From a virus: 22,729 nucleotides of DNA. Of this stretch, positions 3,032 to 19,336 are shown in pieces. Location of the stretch: positions 1 through 22,729 of the IMG/VR virus record IMGVR_UViG_3300028299_000169. The stretch is one strand, 5' to 3'. The first letter of the stretch is position 1. Each line of letters starts with the position of its first letter. A program made the translations under genes and the position numbers. The notes below the pieces were generated by a model. That model ran no database searches and was not told the DNA's origin. It saw only the letters and a program-made list of their open reading frames with translations.

Positions 3032-4132
3032 ATGATCGGTATTACTCCCCTATGTCGTTATCTCAAACAACAAGGCAACGAAGTCTATTGTCTTACCAAG
3101 AATACCGGAGAGGAAATCCTACGGTATAATCCGAATGTGGATAAACTGATACTTTACAATGATGAACTAAAAAAGATGTTCTCTGGATTAGACGAAGTTC
3201 CAAATAGAAAGTTAGGAGATTTCTTTAAGGCTACCGCGCAGGCTTATGAATGCGAAAGGATAATCAATCTCTGCGAGAGTTGGGAGGTTAAACTGGCCCG
3301 GTGTCCGCATGAGCCGGATTTCAAGTATCCGCTTACGATTGCGCGAGAGCAGTGCGACATAAATTACTATGAGCAGATATTCAGGTTGGCGGAAGAACCC
3401 GCAAAGGGAATTATGAGTTATTCTGCTTTTGATAGTTCTTTTTTTACTCCCGAAATGTTCTTCAGCCCGGAAGAAACAATCAAGATGGGCAACGACTTTA
3501 TAGACTTCCGCAAGCTCGGCAAGTTTGTAATCCTCTGGGGGCTATCCGGCAGCGCGGCTAACAAGACCTACCCTTATGTGCCGGAAGTTATATTTCCTAT
3601 CCTCAAGAAATATCCGAAAGTGTGTTTTCTTACCGTAGGGGATGAGGTATGCCGAGTGCTTGAATTTGAACTTAATCCTGATTTCTATAAAGACAAGAAT
3701 GTCAATAAACAAAAGTTATGCGAAAGGATTATAAGGAAATCGGCTCAATGGTCTATTCGTGAGAGTTGTCTGGCTACTAAATATGCTAATCTTGTGATTG
3801 CTCCGGACACAGGGATATTGCACGCTTCGGGGATGTTTAACACTCCCAAAATAGGGTTATTAAACCATACCACCATAAAAAATATTACAAAACATTTCAA
3901 GAATGACTTTTCTCTCCACGCTTCCGAAGGTCAGCATCCTTTCTTTGGGCCGGTAAGTTGTTCTCCTTGCTTTAAAATCCACTACTCCAAAAAGATAACC
4001 TGTAACATGGATGATGTAAAAGGAACGCAAGCGCCGATCTGCATGACTCATGGAATACCTGCTGATAAAGTAATAAAACGCATTGAGGAGGTAGTCAATG
4101 GAGCACCGTTTTTTCAAACCCAGGACGCTTGA
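3032..4132 (+). CDS. GT9 (ADP-heptose:LPS heptosyltransferase-like) glycosyltransferase, N-terminus disrupted
   Basis: The 366-residue open frame resembles glycosyltransferase family 9, which transfers heptose or related sugars from nucleotide donors to surface glycans. The C-terminal half carries the family hallmark: VILWGLSGSAANKTYPY (about 166-182, donor-domain start) and APDTGILHASGMFNTPKIGL (257-276), matching the DxGxxH and P-x-x-x-L donor-binding region. The usual first beta strand and RLGAIGD loop are encoded just upstream in another frame (2979-3026), so this ORF starts at an internal ATG with only AGGGG two bases before it. If translated only from 3032 the enzyme lacks part of its acceptor domain. 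Overlaps the next gene by 35 nt. Confidence 0.8.
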   Translation: MIGITPLCRYLKQQGNEVYCLTKNTGEEILRYNPNVDKLILYNDELKKMFSGLDEVPNRKLGDFFKATAQAYECERIINLCESWEVKLARCPHEPDFKYPLTIAREQCDINYYEQIFRLAEEPAKGIMSYSAFDSSFFTPEMFFSPEETIKMGNDFIDFRKLGKFVILWGLSGSAANKTYPYVPEVIFPILKKYPKVCFLTVGDEVCRVLEFELNPDFYKDKNVNKQKLCERIIRKSAQWSIRESCLATKYANLVIAPDTGILHASGMFNTPKIGLLNHTTIKNITKHFKNDFSLHASEGQHPFFGPVSCSPCFKIHYSKKITCNMDDVKGTQAPICMTHGIPADKVIKRIEEVVNGAPFFQTQDA

Positions 4133-4787
4133 GGATGCAAAAGGCTGGATACTTTCCTCCCACGAAAACGCATCTACAGAGGAAAGATGGGAAACAGAAA
4201 CCCCTATTTTTTCTCAACACATCCTCAAATATGCTAAAGATAACTTCCGGATACTTGATTATGGCTGCGGGATAGGAAGATTAGCCAAAGAAATATTATT
4301 ACAGAACGCCACTGTAAGCGTTGTCGGCCTTGATGATTCCAGTGTAATGCTTATGCAGGCCCCTTATTATGTAATGAACAAGAGATTTTCTACTGTCAGG
4401 CCTAAAGACCTGGAGGGGATGTTTGATGTTATTTATAATATCTATGTGATGCAACATATCCCCGCCATAGAGATAAGGGATTCCCTGCGCCGGATGTATT
4501 CGCATTTGAAAGACGAAGGGGTATTGATATATTGCTCAAGTAATTTCCGCCATGCTATCCGGTTTGATGACAAGATAGAATTCTTTGATGATTCATTCCT
4601 GGGGGTAAACTTATACGAGGAATTAACTAATTTTTTTGATGTCATAGAACCCTTATTCAGCAGGGAAGTATTAGATTCTAACCCCTTGCTCAAAAATATA
4701 ATTGAAGGTTCGGAGATTAGGGAAGATAAGACATTCCTGATACCGCACTATGCGTTAGTTTGCAGAAAGAAAAAGGGAATATGCTAA
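4098..4787 (+). CDS. Class I SAM-dependent methyltransferase
   Basis: The 229-residue protein has motif I RILDYGCGIGRLAKE (51-65) and VVGLDDSS with an acidic pair as motif II. The mid-region YNIYVMQHIP corresponds to motif IV, and LKDEGVLIYCSSN is the usual post-IV strand, so the complete Methyltransf_11/25 fold is visible. The N-terminal 45 residues are extra and might contact the acceptor. ATG 4098 has a good SD (GAGGAGGT, 4084-4091) and overlaps the GT9 gene. Placed among sugar genes, it most likely methylates a sugar or a glycan end; the substrate is not readable from sequence. Confidence 0.85.
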   Translation: MEHRFFKPRTLEDAKGWILSSHENASTEERWETETPIFSQHILKYAKDNFRILDYGCGIGRLAKEILLQNATVSVVGLDDSSVMLMQAPYYVMNKRFSTVRPKDLEGMFDVIYNIYVMQHIPAIEIRDSLRRMYSHLKDEGVLIYCSSNFRHAIRFDDKIEFFDDSFLGVNLYEELTNFFDVIEPLFSREVLDSNPLLKNIIEGSEIREDKTFLIPHYALVCRKKKGIC

Positions 4788-5314
4788 AATTAAATTTAGG
4801 TTGCGGTGATGATTACAAAGAAGGGTTTGTTAATGTAGATAAAGACCCTGCCATAAAAACCGACCTCGTCCATGATGTTTCAGAGAGGATGCCCTTTAAA
4901 GATAATAGCGTGGATGAAATCCAATGCTTCAATATCCTCGAACATCTGTCTAATTTTGTGGAGGTTATGTTTGATTTATATAGGGTGCTAAAAGAAGGTG
5001 GGATATTGATAATTTCAGTTCCGGAGTTCCCCTGCCGTGCCTGTGTCGGTGATCCTACCCACCAGAAGTTATTTATTATGGAAACTTTCTTTATGTTTTG
5101 CCATCCCGAAGTATTTAAGGCGAGTAATTTTATAGGCGCGGGAATGTTTGATGTAGAGGATGCGCGCAGGATATTTTGGGATTACGAGGATGGGAGAAAG
5201 CCAGGTTCTTACTATACTGAAATCAGGATAACCTTAAAAAAGGTTTCCCCGGATTACTGGAAAACAGAAAGAGAGAAAAGGTTGATATTTAAAGAAGGGA
5301 TATTAAAAAGATAA
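4781..5314 (+). CDS. Short class I SAM-dependent methyltransferase
   Basis: I choose ATG 4781 (177 aa) over an upstream TTG at 4760, because MLKLNLGCGDDYKEGFVNVD is the usual N-terminus of this family and the ATG overlaps the upstream TAA (ATGCTAA). Motif I LNLGCGD is at residues 4-10, the acidic NVDKD follows, then PFKDNSVDEI and NILEHLSN, then VLKEGGILIISVPE. These are the standard elements of small Methyltransf_11-type proteins linked to glycan biosynthesis clusters. The C-terminus is basic. It is the second of three consecutive methyltransferases. Confidence 0.85.
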   Translation: MLKLNLGCGDDYKEGFVNVDKDPAIKTDLVHDVSERMPFKDNSVDEIQCFNILEHLSNFVEVMFDLYRVLKEGGILIISVPEFPCRACVGDPTHQKLFIMETFFMFCHPEVFKASNFIGAGMFDVEDARRIFWDYEDGRKPGSYYTEIRITLKKVSPDYWKTEREKRLIFKEGILKR

Positions 5315-5320
5315 TTTACT

Positions 5321-6082
5321 ATGGATAACCGTTGCCCTTTATGTCGGCGCGAAGTCTATCAGTCAATAAAGACCAAAAGCAAGGTTGAGGATACTGACGA
5401 TTTTAATATTTCAACCTGGCTTATGTGCCAATGTGGATGTATCTTCAATCAAGAAGAACATGACCCTAAAGAAGTATTTACTAAAGATTACCTCAAAAAC
5501 TATGCGGAACTCAAGGATATAAAAGAAAACCTGGATTATTATATTTATACTTATTTGCCTTTTATCGAAGAGATAACCTATGGCCGTAAGTTTTTGGATG
5601 TCGGATACTGTTTTGATTTGAATATCCTTGAGATGCGCGGGCGCGGCTGGCTTGCTACTGGAATAGACTTGATAGAGAATAAGGATTACCATACCGGCGA
5701 CTTCTTGACCTTCGACTTCGGCAAGGAACGCTTTGACTTTATTAAGATGACCGATTTCCTGCAATGCGTCAAAGACCCGCTTGCCGCACTCCGTAAGGCT
5801 TACGGTCTGCTTTATCCTGCCGGCGTATTGATGATCGTTACCCCTGATACCGATTTAATCAAAAATGATTATTTTCCGAATTGGGGACATTGGAATACAA
5901 AAGGGAATAGGCAGTATGTAAATGAGCAGATACTCCGCGATATGCTGGCAAAGTGCGATGATAACCTCTCTGGAAAATTTACGGTAAAGTTAGTGCATCG
6001 GGATTTAAGCAAGAGGTTTGTTTCGTGGAATACAATCCACTTGATAGCGCAAAAAGAAAAGCGGGAGATTGCTATTGCCTGA
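5321..6082 (+). CDS. Zinc-ribbon-headed methyltransferase-like protein with degenerate motif I
   Basis: The 253-residue protein opens with CPLC (Cys5, Cys8) and a second cluster CQCGC (36-40), a zinc ribbon like those leading sugar C-methyltransferases. A Methyltransf_23-type domain follows: KFLDVGYCFD (90-99) where a LDVGCGxG loop is expected, then ATGIDLIEN, FDFIKMTDFLQCVKDP and GLLYPAGVLMIVTPD. The SAM loop lacks the usual glycines, so binding may be altered or lost. There is no good SD, and the start follows the upstream stop by 6 nt. Best guess: sugar methyltransferase or a non-catalytic relative. Confidence 0.75.
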   Translation: MDNRCPLCRREVYQSIKTKSKVEDTDDFNISTWLMCQCGCIFNQEEHDPKEVFTKDYLKNYAELKDIKENLDYYIYTYLPFIEEITYGRKFLDVGYCFDLNILEMRGRGWLATGIDLIENKDYHTGDFLTFDFGKERFDFIKMTDFLQCVKDPLAALRKAYGLLYPAGVLMIVTPDTDLIKNDYFPNWGHWNTKGNRQYVNEQILRDMLAKCDDNLSGKFTVKLVHRDLSKRFVSWNTIHLIAQKEKREIAIA

Positions 6083-11911: not shown

Positions 11912-12079
11912 ATGGGAGTCGGAGTAGGCCAGTATTGGGTAACAAACTCTCTTGGTGGTTCGCTAACCAATAACAAACTATCAAAGAGTATCAGGGAACA
12001 GAATATCGGCGAATTTGTTTTTAAGCAATTCGTTGATATCAAGGAACAGTTAGGTGCAAAGTCAGGGGATACCGTCTAT
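11912..12079 (+). CDS. Major capsid protein, exon 1 (N4 gp56-type)
   Basis: ATG 11912 has SD AAGGAG (11898-11903). The 56 codons, MGVGVGQYWV onward, end in ...GAKSGDTVY; the next codon in the unspliced frame is TAA (12080-12082). The segment looks like the N-terminus of N4 gp56-type coat proteins, including the conserved GDTV turn. The exon ends with GUCUAU, which pairs as P1 with GUAGAC (12090-12095) in the intron. Joining to 12728 gives GDTVY-INKAFDKTL with no frame break and a 320-residue protein. Confidence 0.88.
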
Positions 12080-12727
12080 TAACAAAATGGTAGACTTAAA
12101 ATTTCGCTATATGCTGGAACAACCCCAAAAGATAGGAGTCCTAACAATGGAAAAATCTTCTATACACGAGGTCAATCAGCAGGTAACAGAGACCGAACTT
12201 GCTTGGTTAGGGGGAATCATTGACGGAGAAGGAAGCATAGGAATTAACGGACGGAGAAATGGTAAATTTAATCTTTGTCCTGTGATGCAGTTAAGCAATA
12301 CCTCTCCTAATATGATTAACAAAGTGATAAGCATATTTGAAAGAATGGGGATAAAACATTATATCCAAACCCATCATTTAAGTTATGCGAACCCTAATCA
12401 TCAAGATATTTACAAGGTGATTATTGGAAGGTTATCGCAAATGAAGTTATTTCTTGAGGCAGTTATTCCTTATCTTGTGGTTAAGGATGGACAGGCAAAA
12501 ATGACCTTGCGTTTTGTGAATAGCAGATTAAGTAACGGCGCAAGGCCGGGTAATCCGAATTTCTGTCCGTATACCGAAGAAGAAAGGAAATTTGCTGAAA
12601 TAGTAAATCAACTTAATTGCGAAAGTAATCACCGATTAAGAAAATCGGAACTGGAATCCTCAACGACTATACGCGAAACAGCATTAGTTGGCTGATGATA
12701 TAGTCTGGCCTGCATAGAAATATGCAG
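12080..12727 (+). ncRNA. Group I intron interrupting the major capsid gene
   Basis: Directly visible pairings: P1 between exon end GUCUAU (12074-12079) and GUAGAC (12090-12095), with U-G at the splice site; P3 UUUCGC (12102-12107) with GCGAAA (12673-12678); P7 GACUAU (12665-12670) with AUAGUC (12700-12705); P8 CAGC (12679-12682) with GCUG (12691-12694). A possible P6 is GGAGUCC (12135-12141) with GGAAUCC, one mismatch. The 3' end is a 7-bp CUGCAUA/UAUGCAG hairpin with a GAAA loop (12710-12727), whose last base is the expected terminal G. The conserved 'UCAACGACUAU' and 'GAUAUAGUC' core strings are present, like T4 td. The intron is 648 nt and holds a homing endonuclease. Splicing not shown by experiment. 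Confidence 0.92.
12147..12695 (+). CDS. Intron-encoded LAGLIDADG homing endonuclease
   Basis: ATG 12147 has SD AGGAG (12134-12138) at 8 nt, so I prefer it to a GTG at 12054 or an ATG at 12087, which lie over exon 1 and P1 respectively. The 182-residue protein has one LAGLIDADG-like helix, LAWLGGIIDGEGSIGI (residues 18-33), with Asp/Glu at the metal-binding end. A beta-rich saddle follows with INKVISIFERMGIKHYIQTH (about 54-73) and a second helical half. One motif suggests it acts as a homodimer. It would cut intron-less capsid alleles to spread the intron. The stop at 12693 lies inside P8, so the last codons also encode P7/P3/P8 strands. Confidence 0.88.
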   Translation: MEKSSIHEVNQQVTETELAWLGGIIDGEGSIGINGRRNGKFNLCPVMQLSNTSPNMINKVISIFERMGIKHYIQTHHLSYANPNHQDIYKVIIGRLSQMKLFLEAVIPYLVVKDGQAKMTLRFVNSRLSNGARPGNPNFCPYTEEERKFAEIVNQLNCESNHRLRKSELESSTTIRETALVG

Positions 12728-13522
12728 ATTAACAAAGCGTTTGATAAAACCCTGAAGATCGATACCAAAGGCGCAACTTTAAACGAAACCTCAACCATAC
12801 CGGAACACAAATGGTTGGTAGTCAAGGATAGCGTAGTCGTAACCGAAATCGGCAACGCCGTGCCTTACACAAATAAGTTAGAGAATTTAGCCGAGTTTGA
12901 CGCGGAAAATATCTCTACCAAGACCTTAAAGGCCGATCAGCTGGAGGTTCTTGACAGCTTGGCGTATGTTGAGTTTGCAAAGGCCGCGTATGTGGCAGTC
13001 TGCACCAACACCGCAACGACAGCCTGGACAAGCAATTCAGTCGCTACCGTTACTGCAACAGCGAATATGTCAGATAAAAATGTGCGTGATGTTGTGGATA
13101 AGATGGAAACTATCCTCATCCCGAAATATTCGGATGGTCAATATCGCGCCATTGTTTCCGTAAATACCAAGAGGGGTATTTACGACTATCTTCAGGCCGT
13201 TGCACAATACACCACGCCTGAATTTAGGCACAAGAACGAAATCGGGCAGTATTACTCAACCCGGTTCGTCCAAGATGCACAGTTCCTCTCAAATACCAAA
13301 AATTCCATCTATGGCGAGGCTATTTTCTTCGGCCAGGAAGCGGTATTGGAAGCAATCGCATTGCTCCCGGAAGTCCGCATGAAAGTTCCTACCGATTATG
13401 GCCGCTCAAAAGGAGTCGCTTGGATTGCCATTGAGGCGTTCAAGAAGATGTGGAACATTGAGGATGACCTCAATTCCACCGGCAAAGGTATTTCCAGGAT
13501 AGTCATGGTAACGTCTGGGTAA
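12728..13522 (+). CDS. Major capsid protein, exon 2 (N4 gp56-type)
   Basis: The downstream exon supplies 264 residues (INKAFDKTLKID onward). Its features match the HK97-fold N4 gp56-type coat family: a beta-rich mid-region, an 'LVVKDSVVVTEIGNAVPYT' strand, a helical VDKMETILIPKYS segment, and the C-terminal QEAVLEAIALLPEVRMKVPT followed by DYGRSKGVAWIAIEAFKKMW. A reading beginning at ATG 12722 would be a separate ORF but has no SD and would lose exon 1; the intron model explains it better. The protein is the main building block of the head. Confidence 0.9.
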   Translation: MNKAFDKTLKIDTKGATLNETSTIPEHKWLVVKDSVVVTEIGNAVPYTNKLENLAEFDAENISTKTLKADQLEVLDSLAYVEFAKAAYVAVCTNTATTAWTSNSVATVTATANMSDKNVRDVVDKMETILIPKYSDGQYRAIVSVNTKRGIYDYLQAVAQYTTPEFRHKNEIGQYYSTRFVQDAQFLSNTKNSIYGEAIFFGQEAVLEAIALLPEVRMKVPTDYGRSKGVAWIAIEAFKKMWNIEDDLNSTGKGISRIVMVTSG

Positions 13523-14080: not shown

Positions 14081-15142
14081 ATGGAAAGAAAATTAAAGAT
14101 AGTGGCAATTTCCAACCACGGTTGCATGAGGGGGCAGAAAACATCAATTTGTCTTATGCAACGGGGGCATAAACTTCATTCTATCGCCAATAAGGTTACG
14201 CAGTATTCCGATCTTTATGAAACGATGATGGTTTACCAGGATATCCACCAGATGCGTAATGCTATTATGACGCACAAAGACGCGGATATCTTCCATTGCC
14301 ATAATGAACCATCTTGGTTTGTTACTATCATTAAAGAGTTATTGCCTAAAAGTAAAGTGATCCTTGATATGCACGACTCGATGTTGTTGCGCCGGACAGA
14401 CGATGAGGTAATAGAAGCTAATGATCCGGCTATCTTTAGATTATCAACCGACGAGCGTAATAACTGCCAGTTAGCGGATGGTATTGTTTATGTCTGCGAT
14501 GCAATGAAACAGATAGTGCATAACGAGTTTGCTCTTTCTCAACCTTGCATAGTTCTCCCTTCGGCATTGCCGAGGCAATTTTATCGGGTAGATTTTATCC
14601 GTTACCAACAGGCACTCGTTTACGAAGGCAGGATAGATAATGATAAGGAGTTATCGAAGGATTGGGGATTTTTTAAGTATGCTAACTATATCGAGTTTGC
14701 CAGGCAATGCAAAGAGATAGGCATACCGTTTCATATTTATACGCCGCGCAAGAATGAGGAAGTAAGGAAAGATTATAAGGACGCGATAGTCCATGAACCG
14801 TTAGGATACGATAAATTTATAAAGGAAATGGGCTGCCATGACTGGGGTTTGGTGGGGAATTGCTTTAAGACCCCGGAGTGGAAGAACGCCTTACCGAATA
14901 AGCTCTTTGAGTATATGGGGGCGTGCCTGCCGATTATATGTTTCAATGCCGATACCTCTTGGGATTTTATCAAGGATTACGGCATGGGGATTAAGGTTGA
15001 GAGTATGCAAGAGATAAAAGACAGGTGGGCGGAACACAGGGAATGCCGCAAGAATGTTATAAAACACAGGATGGAATTTTGTCTGGAGAATTATATCGGT
15101 AAATTAGAGGAACTCTATGAGAAAGTTCTTTCAATCGGTTAG
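14081..15142 (+). CDS. Glycosyltransferase (GT4-like)
   Basis: The 353-residue protein has a GT-B plan. N-terminal strand KIVAISNHGCMRGQKTSI (6-23), then ADIFHCHNEPSW (68-79) and VILDMHDSM (93-101), in the same positions as GT4 enzymes. The C-terminal donor half includes PNKLFEYMGACLPIICFN (272-289), matching the 'NKxfEymAxGlPvi' donor loop of GT4 transferases. It therefore probably moves a sugar from a nucleotide donor to a glycan or protein. It opens the second cassette right after a terminator and overlaps the next gene by 26 nt. The donor sugar cannot be told. Confidence 0.8.
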   Translation: MERKLKIVAISNHGCMRGQKTSICLMQRGHKLHSIANKVTQYSDLYETMMVYQDIHQMRNAIMTHKDADIFHCHNEPSWFVTIIKELLPKSKVILDMHDSMLLRRTDDEVIEANDPAIFRLSTDERNNCQLADGIVYVCDAMKQIVHNEFALSQPCIVLPSALPRQFYRVDFIRYQQALVYEGRIDNDKELSKDWGFFKYANYIEFARQCKEIGIPFHIYTPRKNEEVRKDYKDAIVHEPLGYDKFIKEMGCHDWGLVGNCFKTPEWKNALPNKLFEYMGACLPIICFNADTSWDFIKDYGMGIKVESMQEIKDRWAEHRECRKNVIKHRMEFCLENYIGKLEELYEKVLSIG

Positions 15143-15632
15143 AAAAAAATCGCTCCTTGATAATAAACCTGTCGTGGGAGTAGAAGTCGGCGTGTGGATG
15201 GGGCTTAACGCTTTTGAGAATTTAATGCTCAATCCTTATATGACTTTGCATTTAGTAGATTGTTACGAGAGGGGATTATCGGATGTCGCAAAGGATGCGG
15301 CAAATTATATTTTAGCCCCTTTCCATGAACGGATTATCTGGCATTATAAGACTTCTGTGGAGGCCGCCAAAGATTTTTTAGATGGTTCTTTGGATTTTGT
15401 TTATATTGACGCCGCCCATGATTATATTTCCGTAAAGCAGGACATTGAAGCATGGCGGCCTAAAATAAAATCAGGCGGAGTTTTGGGAGGGCATGATTTT
15501 TATGATGTCAAGCAAATGCCCGTGAAATCCAGAAAACATAATGGCGTGTCTGCGGCAGTGCATAATACATTGCTGCCAGGAGAAAAATTCCATTACTCCG
15601 TTGTAGCCGGAGATTGGTGGCTGACGGTATGA
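15117..15632 (+). CDS. SAM-dependent methyltransferase (Methyltransf_24-like)
   Basis: The 171-residue protein has motif I VVGVEVGVWMGLNA (19-32), acidic LHLVDCYE (45-52), and DFVYIDAAHDYISVKQDIEA (93-112) followed by IKSGGVLGGHDFYD (117-130). The 'DaaHxYxxvkxDi' and 'ggHDf' signature is typical of Methyltransf_24 proteins found in surface-polysaccharide clusters. ATG 15117 overlaps the upstream glycosyltransferase by 26 nt. It probably O-methylates a sugar within the cassette's product. Confidence 0.82.
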   Translation: MRKFFQSVRKKSLLDNKPVVGVEVGVWMGLNAFENLMLNPYMTLHLVDCYERGLSDVAKDAANYILAPFHERIIWHYKTSVEAAKDFLDGSLDFVYIDAAHDYISVKQDIEAWRPKIKSGGVLGGHDFYDVKQMPVKSRKHNGVSAAVHNTLLPGEKFHYSVVAGDWWLTV

Positions 15633-15661
15633 AATTATTATTTATTACTTTCAATGAATAA
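15629..15661 (+). other. Ten-codon ORF resembling a gene start
   Basis: ATG 15629 overlaps the upstream stop (ATGA) and reads MKLLFITFNE then TAA at 15659-15661, overlapping the next gene's start in another frame. The ten residues look like the first beta strand of a glycosyltransferase. It could be a remnant of a deleted gene or simply a coupling leader. I do not treat it as a functional gene. Confidence 0.25.
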
Positions 15662-16586
15662 GATATTTATTGTTATCCCGACTATCAGGCCAGATAAGAT
15701 TTTAGATTTCCTTGAAAAATGGAAGGAACAATTCAAGGATTATTCATTGATAGTGGTTGAGGATAACCCGAATAAAACATTTTCATTGCCGGATAATATA
15801 CAACATTATTGCTGGCAGGATATAGATAGTGATTTAAAAGATAAATCCTGGATTATATCAAGGCGCAGTTCAGCAATCCGTTCTTATGGATTTTATAAGG
15901 CATACAAGCAGGGCGCGGATATCATTATAACGCTTGATGATGATTGCCAGCCCTACGATTACCTTGATTCGTATATTAACTATTTGAATATGACCATATT
16001 TGATAATGCCTGGGAATATACCTGTAATATCCCTACGCGGGGTGTGCCGTATTTTAATAAAAACCGGGAAATGAAGTGTGTTTTAAATCACGGATTATGG
16101 ACAGGCGACCCTGATCTTGACGCAATACAGCAATTAACTAAAAACAAGAATATAGAGTTGATAGACAAAATCATCCCGCGAGGCAAATATTTCCCGATGT
16201 GTGGGATGAACCTGGTATTTGCCAGCGAGATAACGCCCTTAATGTATTTTCCCTTGATGGGAGAAGGTCAACCTTACGACAGATATGATGATATCTGGTG
16301 CGGTCTGTTCGCCAAGAAGATACTTGACCATTTAGGATTAGGCGTTCATTCCGGGCATCCTTTCGTTTATCACAACAGGGCATCAGATGTATGGAAAAAT
16401 CTTATCCAGGAATCATCGGGATATAAGATAAACGAAATTTTATGGCACACTGTCGATGATATTATCTTGACTAAAGATAATCCGATAGATTGTTACATTG
16501 AATTGGCGCAAAAGTTGCCTGGTTGCAATGAGTATTTTATTAACCTAAAAAAAGCGATGGCAATCTGGGCGGAGTTGTTTATATGA
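15654..16586 (+). CDS. GT75-like protein (reversibly glycosylated polypeptide / UDP-arabinopyranose mutase family)
   Basis: The 310-residue protein closely follows the RGP/UAM layout. IFIVIPTIRPDKILDFLEKW (4-23), WIISRRSSAIRSYGFYKAYK (66-85), DDDC (95-98, metal/nucleotide site), TRGVPYFNKNRE (128-139) retaining two Arg of the segment glycosylated in plant RGPs, NHGLWTGDPDLDA (145-157), PMCGMNLVF (181-189), and GQPYDRYDDIWCG with an HLGLGVHSG block. In plants these interconvert UDP-arabinopyranose and furanose; bacterial members are less studied. Activity here is inferred. Its neighbours are GT2, GT4 and a methyltransferase, so it may supply or transfer an unusual sugar. Its stop overlaps the next gene by ATGA. 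Confidence 0.82.
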   Translation: MNKIFIVIPTIRPDKILDFLEKWKEQFKDYSLIVVEDNPNKTFSLPDNIQHYCWQDIDSDLKDKSWIISRRSSAIRSYGFYKAYKQGADIIITLDDDCQPYDYLDSYINYLNMTIFDNAWEYTCNIPTRGVPYFNKNREMKCVLNHGLWTGDPDLDAIQQLTKNKNIELIDKIIPRGKYFPMCGMNLVFASEITPLMYFPLMGEGQPYDRYDDIWCGLFAKKILDHLGLGVHSGHPFVYHNRASDVWKNLIQESSGYKINEILWHTVDDIILTKDNPIDCYIELAQKLPGCNEYFINLKKAMAIWAELFI

Positions 16587-17287
16587 AACCGAAAATGACT
16601 TATATAATGCCAAGCATTAGGGATACCTTTTTTAAATCGGCATATAAATCCGTCTTAAATCAGACAGTAAAGGATATTGAACTTATCGTTGTGAATAATG
16701 ACCCGGAAAGAGATATTAAGATAGAAGATTCGCGGGTATCTATTATAAACGCAGACAGATTAAATTATGCAAAGAGCATAAACCTTGTTACAAAACAAGC
16801 GCAGTCGGATATTATCGCAATCGCACATGATGACGATATTCAATTCAGGGAAAGGACACTGATTGCCCTTGATTACCATAATCAGGGATACGATATAGTA
16901 TATGGCGGTTATATTATCATAGATTATTACGGGAAACCGATGGCTTACAAGACACCGATTCCCTTTGATTATGAAAGACAAAAACGCCAATCCGGAATGG
17001 TTACTTATGCGTTTATTTCTTATAAGAAGGAAGGCATACCTGATCTGCGCGAAAATTATGACATACTCTCTGATTACCTGTGGGGTCTTGATTGTTACAA
17101 TAAGGGTTTTACATTAAAGGCAGTAGAGATGCCATTCGGATATTACCGGATGTGGAAAAGCACAAGTCAATCCAATAAAAATCTTAGATTTGAAGAAGTC
17201 CTGCGGATGAGGAAAGAATTTAATGATGATACGATAAAAAGGGGGAGTTGGGAAAATGAAAATATTGTGCATAACGCCCTGGCCTAA
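16583..17287 (+). CDS. GT2-family glycosyltransferase
   Basis: The 234-residue protein is a GT-A enzyme. KMTYIMPSIRDTFFKSAYKS (4-23) then VLNQTVKDIELIVVNNDP (24-41) is the usual GT2 opening, DRLNYAKSINLVTKQAQSDI (58-77) the middle, and AHDDDIQFRERTL (81-93) holds the DDD metal site. The C-terminal part has YDILSDYLWGLDCYNKGFTL (about 158-177), matching the D/E-D base region and the acceptor subdomain. Coupled by ATGA to the GT75-like gene, and it overlaps the next gene by 32 nt. Confidence 0.85.
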   Translation: MKPKMTYIMPSIRDTFFKSAYKSVLNQTVKDIELIVVNNDPERDIKIEDSRVSIINADRLNYAKSINLVTKQAQSDIIAIAHDDDIQFRERTLIALDYHNQGYDIVYGGYIIIDYYGKPMAYKTPIPFDYERQKRQSGMVTYAFISYKKEGIPDLRENYDILSDYLWGLDCYNKGFTLKAVEMPFGYYRMWKSTSQSNKNLRFEEVLRMRKEFNDDTIKRGSWENENIVHNALA

Positions 17288-18197
17288 TACTTGGGTCGGA
17301 TACTGGACAAAGTATATAGAATCTCGCGGCCATGAAGTCAAGTGGCATATCAGTCCGTATGTAATACCTGAAAAGATTAGACCGGATTTAGATTGGTGCG
17401 ATATTGTTCTTTCTCATTGGGCGGATAAATACGCGATTATGCTTTCTGATCCCTTGATGAATACTAAACCATTATATGTTATCCTGCGTTCCTTTGAGAT
17501 TTTCAGCGCGGATGGCTGGGCTGACTTGGGTTCGATACAATGGAAAAATGTTAAGCAGCTATTTATGCTCAACGAGGCGCATCTGCATTCTTTTAAGTGC
17601 CGCGTCCAGGGGATAGAACCTACTTTTATCAAGAATGGGGTTGATTTGGACGAATGGAAACCGTCTGATACGCCGAAGAACCCGGATAAGATAGCCTGGA
17701 TATGCGATATCAACGAGAAAAAGGGCGTTGAGTTATGCGTGCAGGCGATAAGCGAGCTATTTAAACTAAATCCGGGCATTAAACTTGAACATATCGGCAG
17801 AAATCAGGACTTGCGCCGGTGGTATTACCTCGAACAGGTAATGCCGCGCCTTAATACCCGATGGTTTAACACAGGATACAAAGCCGATCATGGTTTCGTG
17901 CAGGACTTCCTTAAGGATAAGAAATTCATCATCTCTACATCCATTGCCGAAGGAAACCCGATGAATATAATCGAGGCGATGGCGCTGGGGGTGATACCTT
18001 TGGTGCATACCTGGCCCGGAGCGGAGATGCAGTTTCCGGAAGAGTGCTTATGGACTACCTTTGACGAGTTGAGGGATATTTACCAGAAACTCAATAACGA
18101 CCCATTGACTTCTTCGCGTATGCGCTCCTGGGCTGAAGATAGATACGATTACAGGAAAAATTATAAATCAGTGATAGATGTGATGGAGGCAGAATGA
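17256..18197 (+). CDS. Glycosyltransferase (GT4 family)
   Basis: The 313-residue GT-B protein begins MKILCITPWPNTWVGYW, the typical opening strand. After an acceptor half, FIKNGVDLDEWKP (124-136) is the usual linker, KIAWICDINEKKGVELCVQA (145-164) opens the donor domain, and SIAEGNPMNIIEAMALG (229-245) carries the EX7E motif (Glu232, Glu240) of retaining GT4 enzymes. It ends close to the next gene with ATGA. SD GGGGGAG (17242-17248) precedes the start. The sugar specificity is unknown. Confidence 0.88.
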   Translation: MKILCITPWPNTWVGYWTKYIESRGHEVKWHISPYVIPEKIRPDLDWCDIVLSHWADKYAIMLSDPLMNTKPLYVILRSFEIFSADGWADLGSIQWKNVKQLFMLNEAHLHSFKCRVQGIEPTFIKNGVDLDEWKPSDTPKNPDKIAWICDINEKKGVELCVQAISELFKLNPGIKLEHIGRNQDLRRWYYLEQVMPRLNTRWFNTGYKADHGFVQDFLKDKKFIISTSIAEGNPMNIIEAMALGVIPLVHTWPGAEMQFPEECLWTTFDELRDIYQKLNNDPLTSSRMRSWAEDRYDYRKNYKSVIDVMEAE

Positions 18198-19336
18198 AGA
18201 CGCTCATTATCGGCATGGGTGAAATAGGCAACGCACTCAAGGATATATTGAGCCTAAAGTATGAAGTGCAGACTTATGATATCAGGGACGTAACTCCTAT
18301 ACCTATTGAAGCTGAAATCCTGCACATCTGCTATCCGCATATAGAAAACTTTGTGGAGATTACCAACAAGTATATTGAATTAGTTAATCCGAAGTATGTC
18401 GTGGTGCACTCGTCCTGCATGGTGGGCACTACCGCACAACTTACTGGCTCTTTGATATTCCATTCTCCATGCCTGGGTAAGCATCCGTATATTACCGAAC
18501 ACATGAAGGTATATCTTAAACTTTTATCTTATAATCACGATAAGTATTACAGGGCGATGGATGTAGTGAAATATTTTACCGATGCCGGTATCAATATGGA
18601 ATTACAACACGGCGGCACGGACGCAACCGAGTTGATGAAGCTCTTGGAGTTGACGCGTTACTGCGTATTCCTGGCTTGTGCTAAAGAACAAGAGAAAATC
18701 TGCGAGCAATTCGGTTATGGTTATGAAGGAATAGTAAACAGATTTGAGCATATCAGGAATGAAGGGCTTGATAAGTTAGGCGCGCACTCTTACCGTCAGC
18801 CGGAGTTTCAGAGTATCTTTGAAAAATATATCGGCGGGCATTGCACCTTAGAGGATACGGAATTGCTATTGCGCCAGGTAAAGAGCAATTTAATAGAGGA
18901 GGCCTACAAGATAGGGCGTGGAACGAATATCTGGCCTAATTCTAATGTATATAACACAGCAAAAATCGGCAAAGGTTGTTCGATTGGCCAGTTTTGCGAG
19001 ATTGGCGATAATGTGGTTATTGGCGATAATATTAGAATCGGCGCGCACACTTTTATTCCTTACGGCGTTACTATTATGGATGATGTATTCATTGCTCCGA
19101 GGGTTAGTTTTAGCAATGACAAGCATCCTCCGGCAGGTAAGGATAAATGGGGCAAGATTTTGGTTAAGAAAGGCGCGGTTATAGGGATGGGCTCGATTAT
19201 CCTTCCTGGTGTAACGATAGGCGAGAGGGCGGTAGTCGGGGCTGGTTCGGTAGTTACAAAAGATATTCCCGATGGAGAGGTATGGTATGGCACAGCAGCA
19301 TACCCTCGTAGTAAACGGGAAGAAGTTTATAAATAG
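18194..19336 (+). CDS. Fusion: NAD-binding Rossmann-like domain + left-handed beta-helix acyltransferase
   Basis: Residues 1-135 begin MKTLIIGMGEIGNALKDIL, a GxGxxG dinucleotide loop, and contain LHICYPHIENF (43-53) and VVHSSCMVGTT (70-80), similar to 6-phosphogluconate/prephenate dehydrogenase-type Rossmann domains. A helical segment follows (about 140-235). Residues 240-375 are hexapeptide repeats: IGKGCSIGQFCEIGDNVVIG (258-277), IGMGSIILPGVTIGERAVVG (330-349), and AGSVVTKDIPDG, as in WbpD/WlbB-type sugar N- or O-acetyltransferases; His311 in NDKHPP could be catalytic. The predicted role is oxidation and acetylation of a nucleotide sugar in one chain. Fusion of these two domains is unusual. 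The start overlaps the GT4 gene (ATGA). Confidence 0.82.
   Translation: MKTLIIGMGEIGNALKDILSLKYEVQTYDIRDVTPIPIEAEILHICYPHIENFVEITNKYIELVNPKYVVVHSSCMVGTTAQLTGSLIFHSPCLGKHPYITEHMKVYLKLLSYNHDKYYRAMDVVKYFTDAGINMELQHGGTDATELMKLLELTRYCVFLACAKEQEKICEQFGYGYEGIVNRFEHIRNEGLDKLGAHSYRQPEFQSIFEKYIGGHCTLEDTELLLRQVKSNLIEEAYKIGRGTNIWPNSNVYNTAKIGKGCSIGQFCEIGDNVVIGDNIRIGAHTFIPYGVTIMDDVFIAPRVSFSNDKHPPAGKDKWGKILVKKGAVIGMGSIILPGVTIGERAVVGAGSVVTKDIPDGEVWYGTAAYPRSKREEVYK

Follow-up and report, generated by a model that had tools for sequence, protein, structure and literature searches.

Introduction

Phage group I introns accompanied by homing endonucleases include those of T4 td and nrd, of the SPO1 DNA polymerase gene and of the Bastillevirinae (PMC2988022, PMC11878797). 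According to reviews, phage introns prefer genes for nucleotide synthesis and DNA metabolism (PMC12350094); polymerases, ribonucleotide reductases and terminases are named as intron hosts, and the usual enzymes are GIY-YIG, HNH and related nucleases (PMC3984707). Capsid genes are known hosts as well. In mycobacteriophage LittleE, splicing of the intron in the major capsid gene was proven by RT-PCR and N-terminal sequencing (PMC3706429), and the lactococcal phage Tuc2009 is cited in the same paper for a group I intron in a capsid subunit gene.

Here we analysed a linear IMG/VR virus record of 22,729 bases, referred to as the window. Its head module consists of terminase, an SU10-like portal, a probable scaffold gene, the capsid gene and an SU10-like adaptor. 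We estimate at about 95% the probability that the major capsid gene of this uncultivated tailed phage is interrupted by a mobile group I intron (12080-12739) encoding an I-CreI-like endonuclease.

The window intron shares several features with that of LittleE: both are probable group I introns with a putative LAGLIDADG endonuclease, both lie in the gene of an HK97-fold major capsid protein (MCP), and both are preceded by U and end in G. The two phages and their capsid families are different, however, and the endonuclease frames differ in orientation: bottom strand in LittleE, sense strand in the window, where the frame overlaps the intron core. Splicing is proven in LittleE, while in the window we infer it. 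Tuc2009, from a different host group, is likewise cited as a phage whose capsid gene contains a group I intron. The T4, SPO1 and Bastillevirinae elements resemble the window intron as phage group I introns with homing endonucleases, but they occupy metabolic or replication genes and mostly carry GIY-YIG or HNH enzymes (PMC3984707).

Results

All features described below are on the plus strand. Exon 1 of the capsid gene (11912-12079, 56 codons from the ATG at 11912) is placed by its open reading frame and by alignment to intronless relatives. It has a Shine-Dalgarno sequence, AAGGAG, just 5' of it and ends in GDTVY. The in-frame TAA that follows (12080-12082) would stop translation of an unspliced mRNA after exon 1. 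Exon 2 (12740-13522, stop codon 13520-13522) runs from FDKTL to MVTSG and is placed by alignment and by its match to the PHROG 1357 major head protein (E 1.5e-8). The original prediction that exon 1 closes at this TAA and that a capsid frame resumes downstream was thus borne out by the reading frames and the relatives. Capsid genes of the intronless relatives are continuous, with an empty site in the closest relative, L006, and in all aligned relatives covering it.

Pfam gave no match for exon 2 alone and no meaningful match for a 320-residue spliced protein. This 320-residue joined form scored 26.2 bits (E 4.4e-6) against TIGR04387 (N4-gp56), below the family cut-off of 60 bits, and the window MCP is therefore only a distant relative of that family. 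The AlphaFold model of L006 was of moderate confidence (pLDDT 68, pTM 0.68), and a Foldseek search with it matched HK97-fold phage capsids, including that of phage N4, with E-values down to 3.6e-12. The PHROG 1357 profile and the predicted fold of the relative give good support for an N4-gp56-like HK97-fold major capsid protein. Judging by the L006 model, the intron lies in the codons of a strand at residues 53-61, which we interpret as strand one of the E-loop hairpin.

Elsewhere in the window, genes for glycosyltransferases, methyltransferases and hexapeptide acyltransferase-like proteins form a block between capsid and adaptor (14081-19336), and further methyltransferases are found at 4098-6082. 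The protein encoded at 15654-16586 gives a strong match (E 4.6e-47) to PF03214 RGP, the reversibly glycosylated polypeptide family, which is known chiefly from plants. At 2359-2964 there is a serine recombinase with a MerR-type helix-turn-helix (IS607-like resolvase).

The sequence between the exons has the anatomy of a group I intron of 660 nt (12080-12739). P1 is formed by GUCUAU (12074-12079) and GUAGAC (12090-12095), with the wobble pair U12079.G12090 at the 5' splice site, which is also the site picked independently by alignment scoring. The P3 5' strand UUUCGC (12102-12107) pairs with GCGAAA (12673-12678), and the P4 5' strand UGCUGG (12112-12117) pairs with UCAGCA (12176-12181). Between the P4 strands, a minimum-energy fold of that stretch only predicts a P5-like hairpin (12132-12163; 12132-12138 with 12157-12163). 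The catalytic core (12665-12705) is supported by its helices and the RF00028 alignment and contains P7, read from the sequence (12665-12669 with 12701-12705), the P3' strand and P8 (12679-12682 with 12691-12694). P7 and P3' are separated by UAC only and no P7.1 is visible; P7.1/P7.2 are IA-type elements. P9 is a hairpin with a GAAA loop (12710-12727; 12710-12716 with 12721-12727), and the tail ATTAACAAAGCG (12728-12739) follows it. The strand CAAA (12083-12086) can form a P10 of 4 bp with the start of exon 2, UUUG (12740-12743). The locus therefore has the P3/P4/P7/P8 core, the U.G pair in P1 and a terminal G with P10, and removal of the intron restores a conserved protein free of gaps at the joint. 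The same architecture is found in the homologous introns L037 and L066, and the anatomy recurs in introns sharing the 18-nt P3-P4 strand of the window.

The helices proposed in the original prediction (P1, P3, P7, P8 and the GAAA hairpin) are all complementary, and P4 pairs too. The accompanying expectation of an RF00028 match over 12080-12727 held in part. Rfam does return the family (E 6.5e-10, 49.1 bits), but the match spans only the 3' core (12462-12727) and misses the gathering cut-off of 50 bits by 0.9, since the 5' core strands are on the far side of the ORF from the rest. Within the alignment, the P7-P3'-P8-P7'-P9 portion, including the 3' strand of P3 and P9, is good; the 5' half is misplaced within the ORF, since the true 5' core strands precede it. 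An Rfam match to SNORD11 at 5460-5539 was far under its cut-off and was regarded as chance.

The intron encodes a LAGLIDADG homing endonuclease of 182 residues (12147-12695). It matches Pfam LAGLIDADG_3 with 34.9 bits (E 1.9e-8), where the cut-off is 22.5. The AlphaFold model (pLDDT 84.9, pTM 0.78) has an alpha-beta-beta-alpha-beta-beta-alpha fold with one LAGLIDADG motif, as in single-motif I-CreI-type enzymes, and Foldseek returned I-CreI, I-CvuI and I-MsoI with E-values of about 1e-8 to 1e-7. These three act on chloroplast 23S rDNA sites. They share with the window enzyme the single-motif fold and the intron-encoded origin, but are only 15-21% identical to it. Since it carries a single motif, the window enzyme should act as a homodimer. 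The motif reads IIDGEG, with Glu where LAGLIDADG usually has its last Asp; judging by its sequence, the protein may plausibly be active despite this substitution. No match to the endonuclease was found in the phage collection, and neither exon 2 nor the endonuclease retrieved relatives from IMG/VR when used as a single-sequence query, so that alignment queries were needed.

The endonuclease ORF would lie within the P6 domain, and it overlaps the P4', P7, P3' and P8 strands. Its Shine-Dalgarno sequence AGGAG (12134-12138) and start codon (12147-12149) are inside the predicted P5-like hairpin. Because the ORF runs through core strands and the ribosome site sits in this hairpin, splicing and endonuclease translation should compete, and the two would probably be mutually exclusive on one transcript.

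To place the splice sites, all pairs with T before the intron and G at its end were ranked by alignment to the intronless references L006, L012 and L001. Searching for P1 by complementarity alone had given false optima (e.g. in L037 and L066), and for this reason sites were fixed by alignment and P1 was read afterwards. The pair 12079/12740 came first or joint first against the three references (1016 v 1002, 611 v 597, 421 v 415): L006 and L012 both favoured it outright, and with L001 it shared the best score with a pair that has a poor P1; of these two, 12079/12740 is the one with the U.G P1.

The original prediction had ended the same intron at G12727, right behind P9, giving a joint GDTVY-INKAFDK and an MCP of 320 residues. 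The Rfam model does stop at 12727 and this joint remains in frame, but we consider it quite unlikely. It scores lower against all three references. L006, which is 62% identical, reads GDIVY-FDKTLKIDTKG where the 12727 joint would give GDTVY-INKA-FDKTLKIDTKG, and INKA is absent from every aligned relative covering the site. A G12727 end would also allow a P10 of at most 3 bp. Furthermore, tails similar to ATTAACAAAGCG (TTAACANAANNG types, (T)TAACA..G) are present in other introns that interrupt unrelated genes, blastn similarity to other introns extends past 12727, and the introns of L004, L037 and L066 likewise end beyond P9. The prediction was thus 12 nt off. Given the best alignment to relatives, the terminal G, the likeness of the tail and the 4-bp P10, we set the 3' splice site after G12739; this is the most likely end on the sequence, and the spliced MCP would have 316 residues (GDTVY-FDKTL). 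The 8-base sequence TTAACAAA occurs twice (12079-12086 and 12729-12736). We did not adopt a deletion footprint as the explanation, since the second copy is the 3' tail of the intron.

Two further explanations concern the nature of the interruption. The intron might be degenerate and no longer splice, in which case the gene would give no full capsid protein or the contig would derive from a defective genome. The borderline Rfam score would fit this, but all core helices and the endonuclease ORF are intact, both exons are open and in frame, and the surrounding terminase, portal and adaptor genes are intact, so we regard it as even less probable than the earlier 3' end. Alternatively, the capsid gene might be broken, in the absence of a ribozyme, by an assembly error or by a free-standing gene for a homing endonuclease. 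The ORF map would then be identical, with a stop right behind exon 1 and a reading frame between the exons. This explanation is practically refuted by the ribozyme core: the RF00028 match comes with paired core helices, P1 is complementary to the gene's own exon, and other phages carry related introns at different sites. A group I intron encoding a homing endonuclease in the major capsid gene, as originally predicted, is thus well supported by RF00028, LAGLIDADG_3, the I-CreI-like predicted fold and the continuous capsid genes of relatives.

About seven sites in this capsid family are occupied by group I introns. Site A, located in codon 40 behind GACGT, is 16 codons upstream of the window intron in the same gene of other phages. 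There, the introns of L037/L222 and L221 contain a LAGLIDADG ORF related to the window endonuclease (about 36-42% identity for the L037/L221 protein), and those of L066/L220 contain a different ORF. The splice scan found nothing for L066 within its window, and this intron was assigned to site A by reading its sequence against L037. In L066, positions 3500-4020 hold a short ORF lacking LAGLIDADG similarity to its L037 relative at the same site. The window intron occupies site B (GDTVY/FDKTL). Site C (GVAW/YYLGG) is occupied in an isolated phage, Vibrio phage 1.232.O (L004; MG592596.1, 2812-4072), by an unannotated intron with an RF00028 score of 83 bits; the annotation of this phage has a capsid protein cut short at GVAWLH, and behind the capsid gene there is an HNH nuclease gene. 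Introns scoring above the RF00028 cut-off are also located at TEYG/NSVP in L262 (2669-4663; a contig of Aromatoleum anaerobium strain LuFRes1), at NS/VP in L263, at FFFG/EDTV in L261 and near residue 182 in L265. These four are bacterial genome contigs and probably represent prophages. Unlike the window intron, those of Vibrio phage 1.232.O and L261 have no ORF inside. Eight capsid genes (L207, L209, L211, L216, L210, L217, L143 and L199) appear to be interrupted by more than one intron.

For a view of the genes that such introns interrupt, two samples were selected solely on intron sequence, blind to the host gene. The 18-nt P3-P4 strand, representing the lineage of the window intron, retrieved 15 contigs with 12 distinct introns. 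Eight of the 12 interrupt genes with matches to PHROG major head proteins (five PHROGs) and three more lie in homologous capsid genes (L214, L207, L215), which brings the MCP count to 11 of 12, with L205 unclassified. The P7'-P9 pattern retrieved at least 119 loci and at least 83 non-redundant sites. Among the matches listed, MCP was the top class with 33 of 65 classified sites, before DNA polymerase (15), tail sheath (4), ribonucleotide reductase, helicase and RNA polymerase (3 each) and other genes (4), while 18 were unclassified. These counts come from one sequence motif per sample, with classes assigned by cluster representative and from a collection, IMG/VR, that favours hallmark genes; the MCP calls for L194 and L107 are weak. 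On contigs of at least 20 kb, MCP genes still account for 13 of 31 among the matches listed, so the share is not merely due to short contigs called viral by their capsid gene. An apparent N-terminal bias of introns within capsid genes was dropped because assigning genes by exon 2 picks up early insertions more readily, and because several introns sit late in the gene.

Discussion

We propose the following mechanism. The precursor RNA would fold through P1-P10, and a guanosine would attack the 5' splice site marked by the U.G pair, after U12079. The freed exon would then attack after G12739, and with GDTVY linked to FDKTL the product would be the HK97-fold capsid protein of 316 residues; before splicing, translation would end at the TAA at 12080-12082. 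The homodimeric I-CreI-like endonuclease would cut the intronless GDTVY/FDKTL site in co-infecting relatives, and repair of the cut would copy the intron in. Splicing in vivo, cutting, mobility and the competition with translation are all deduced from the sequence. Few phage proteins are expressed as highly as the capsid protein, and an intron in its gene must therefore splice very efficiently.

It had been suggested that the window intron may be new. This has weak support: group I introns in capsid genes are published (LittleE, Tuc2009), the same capsid family carries several others, and the window intron adds a member. A broader reading, to which we give somewhat less than even odds, is that this intron lineage is concentrated in MCP genes of many unrelated HK97-fold families; that capsid genes, and not those of nucleotide metabolism, are the leading home of group I introns in uncultivated phages; and that nearby sites in one capsid family were repeatedly colonised by related elements. 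We found no description of such repeated colonisation or of a high capsid share in the open-licence literature.

Many introns occur in one type of gene, at about seven sites in one family and across many unrelated capsid families. Structural genes that are conserved and highly expressed may therefore be major targets of introns. The finding also suggests that gene-calling truncates many phage capsid genes, as in Vibrio phage 1.232.O. Why phage introns favour certain genes thereby becomes testable at large scale.
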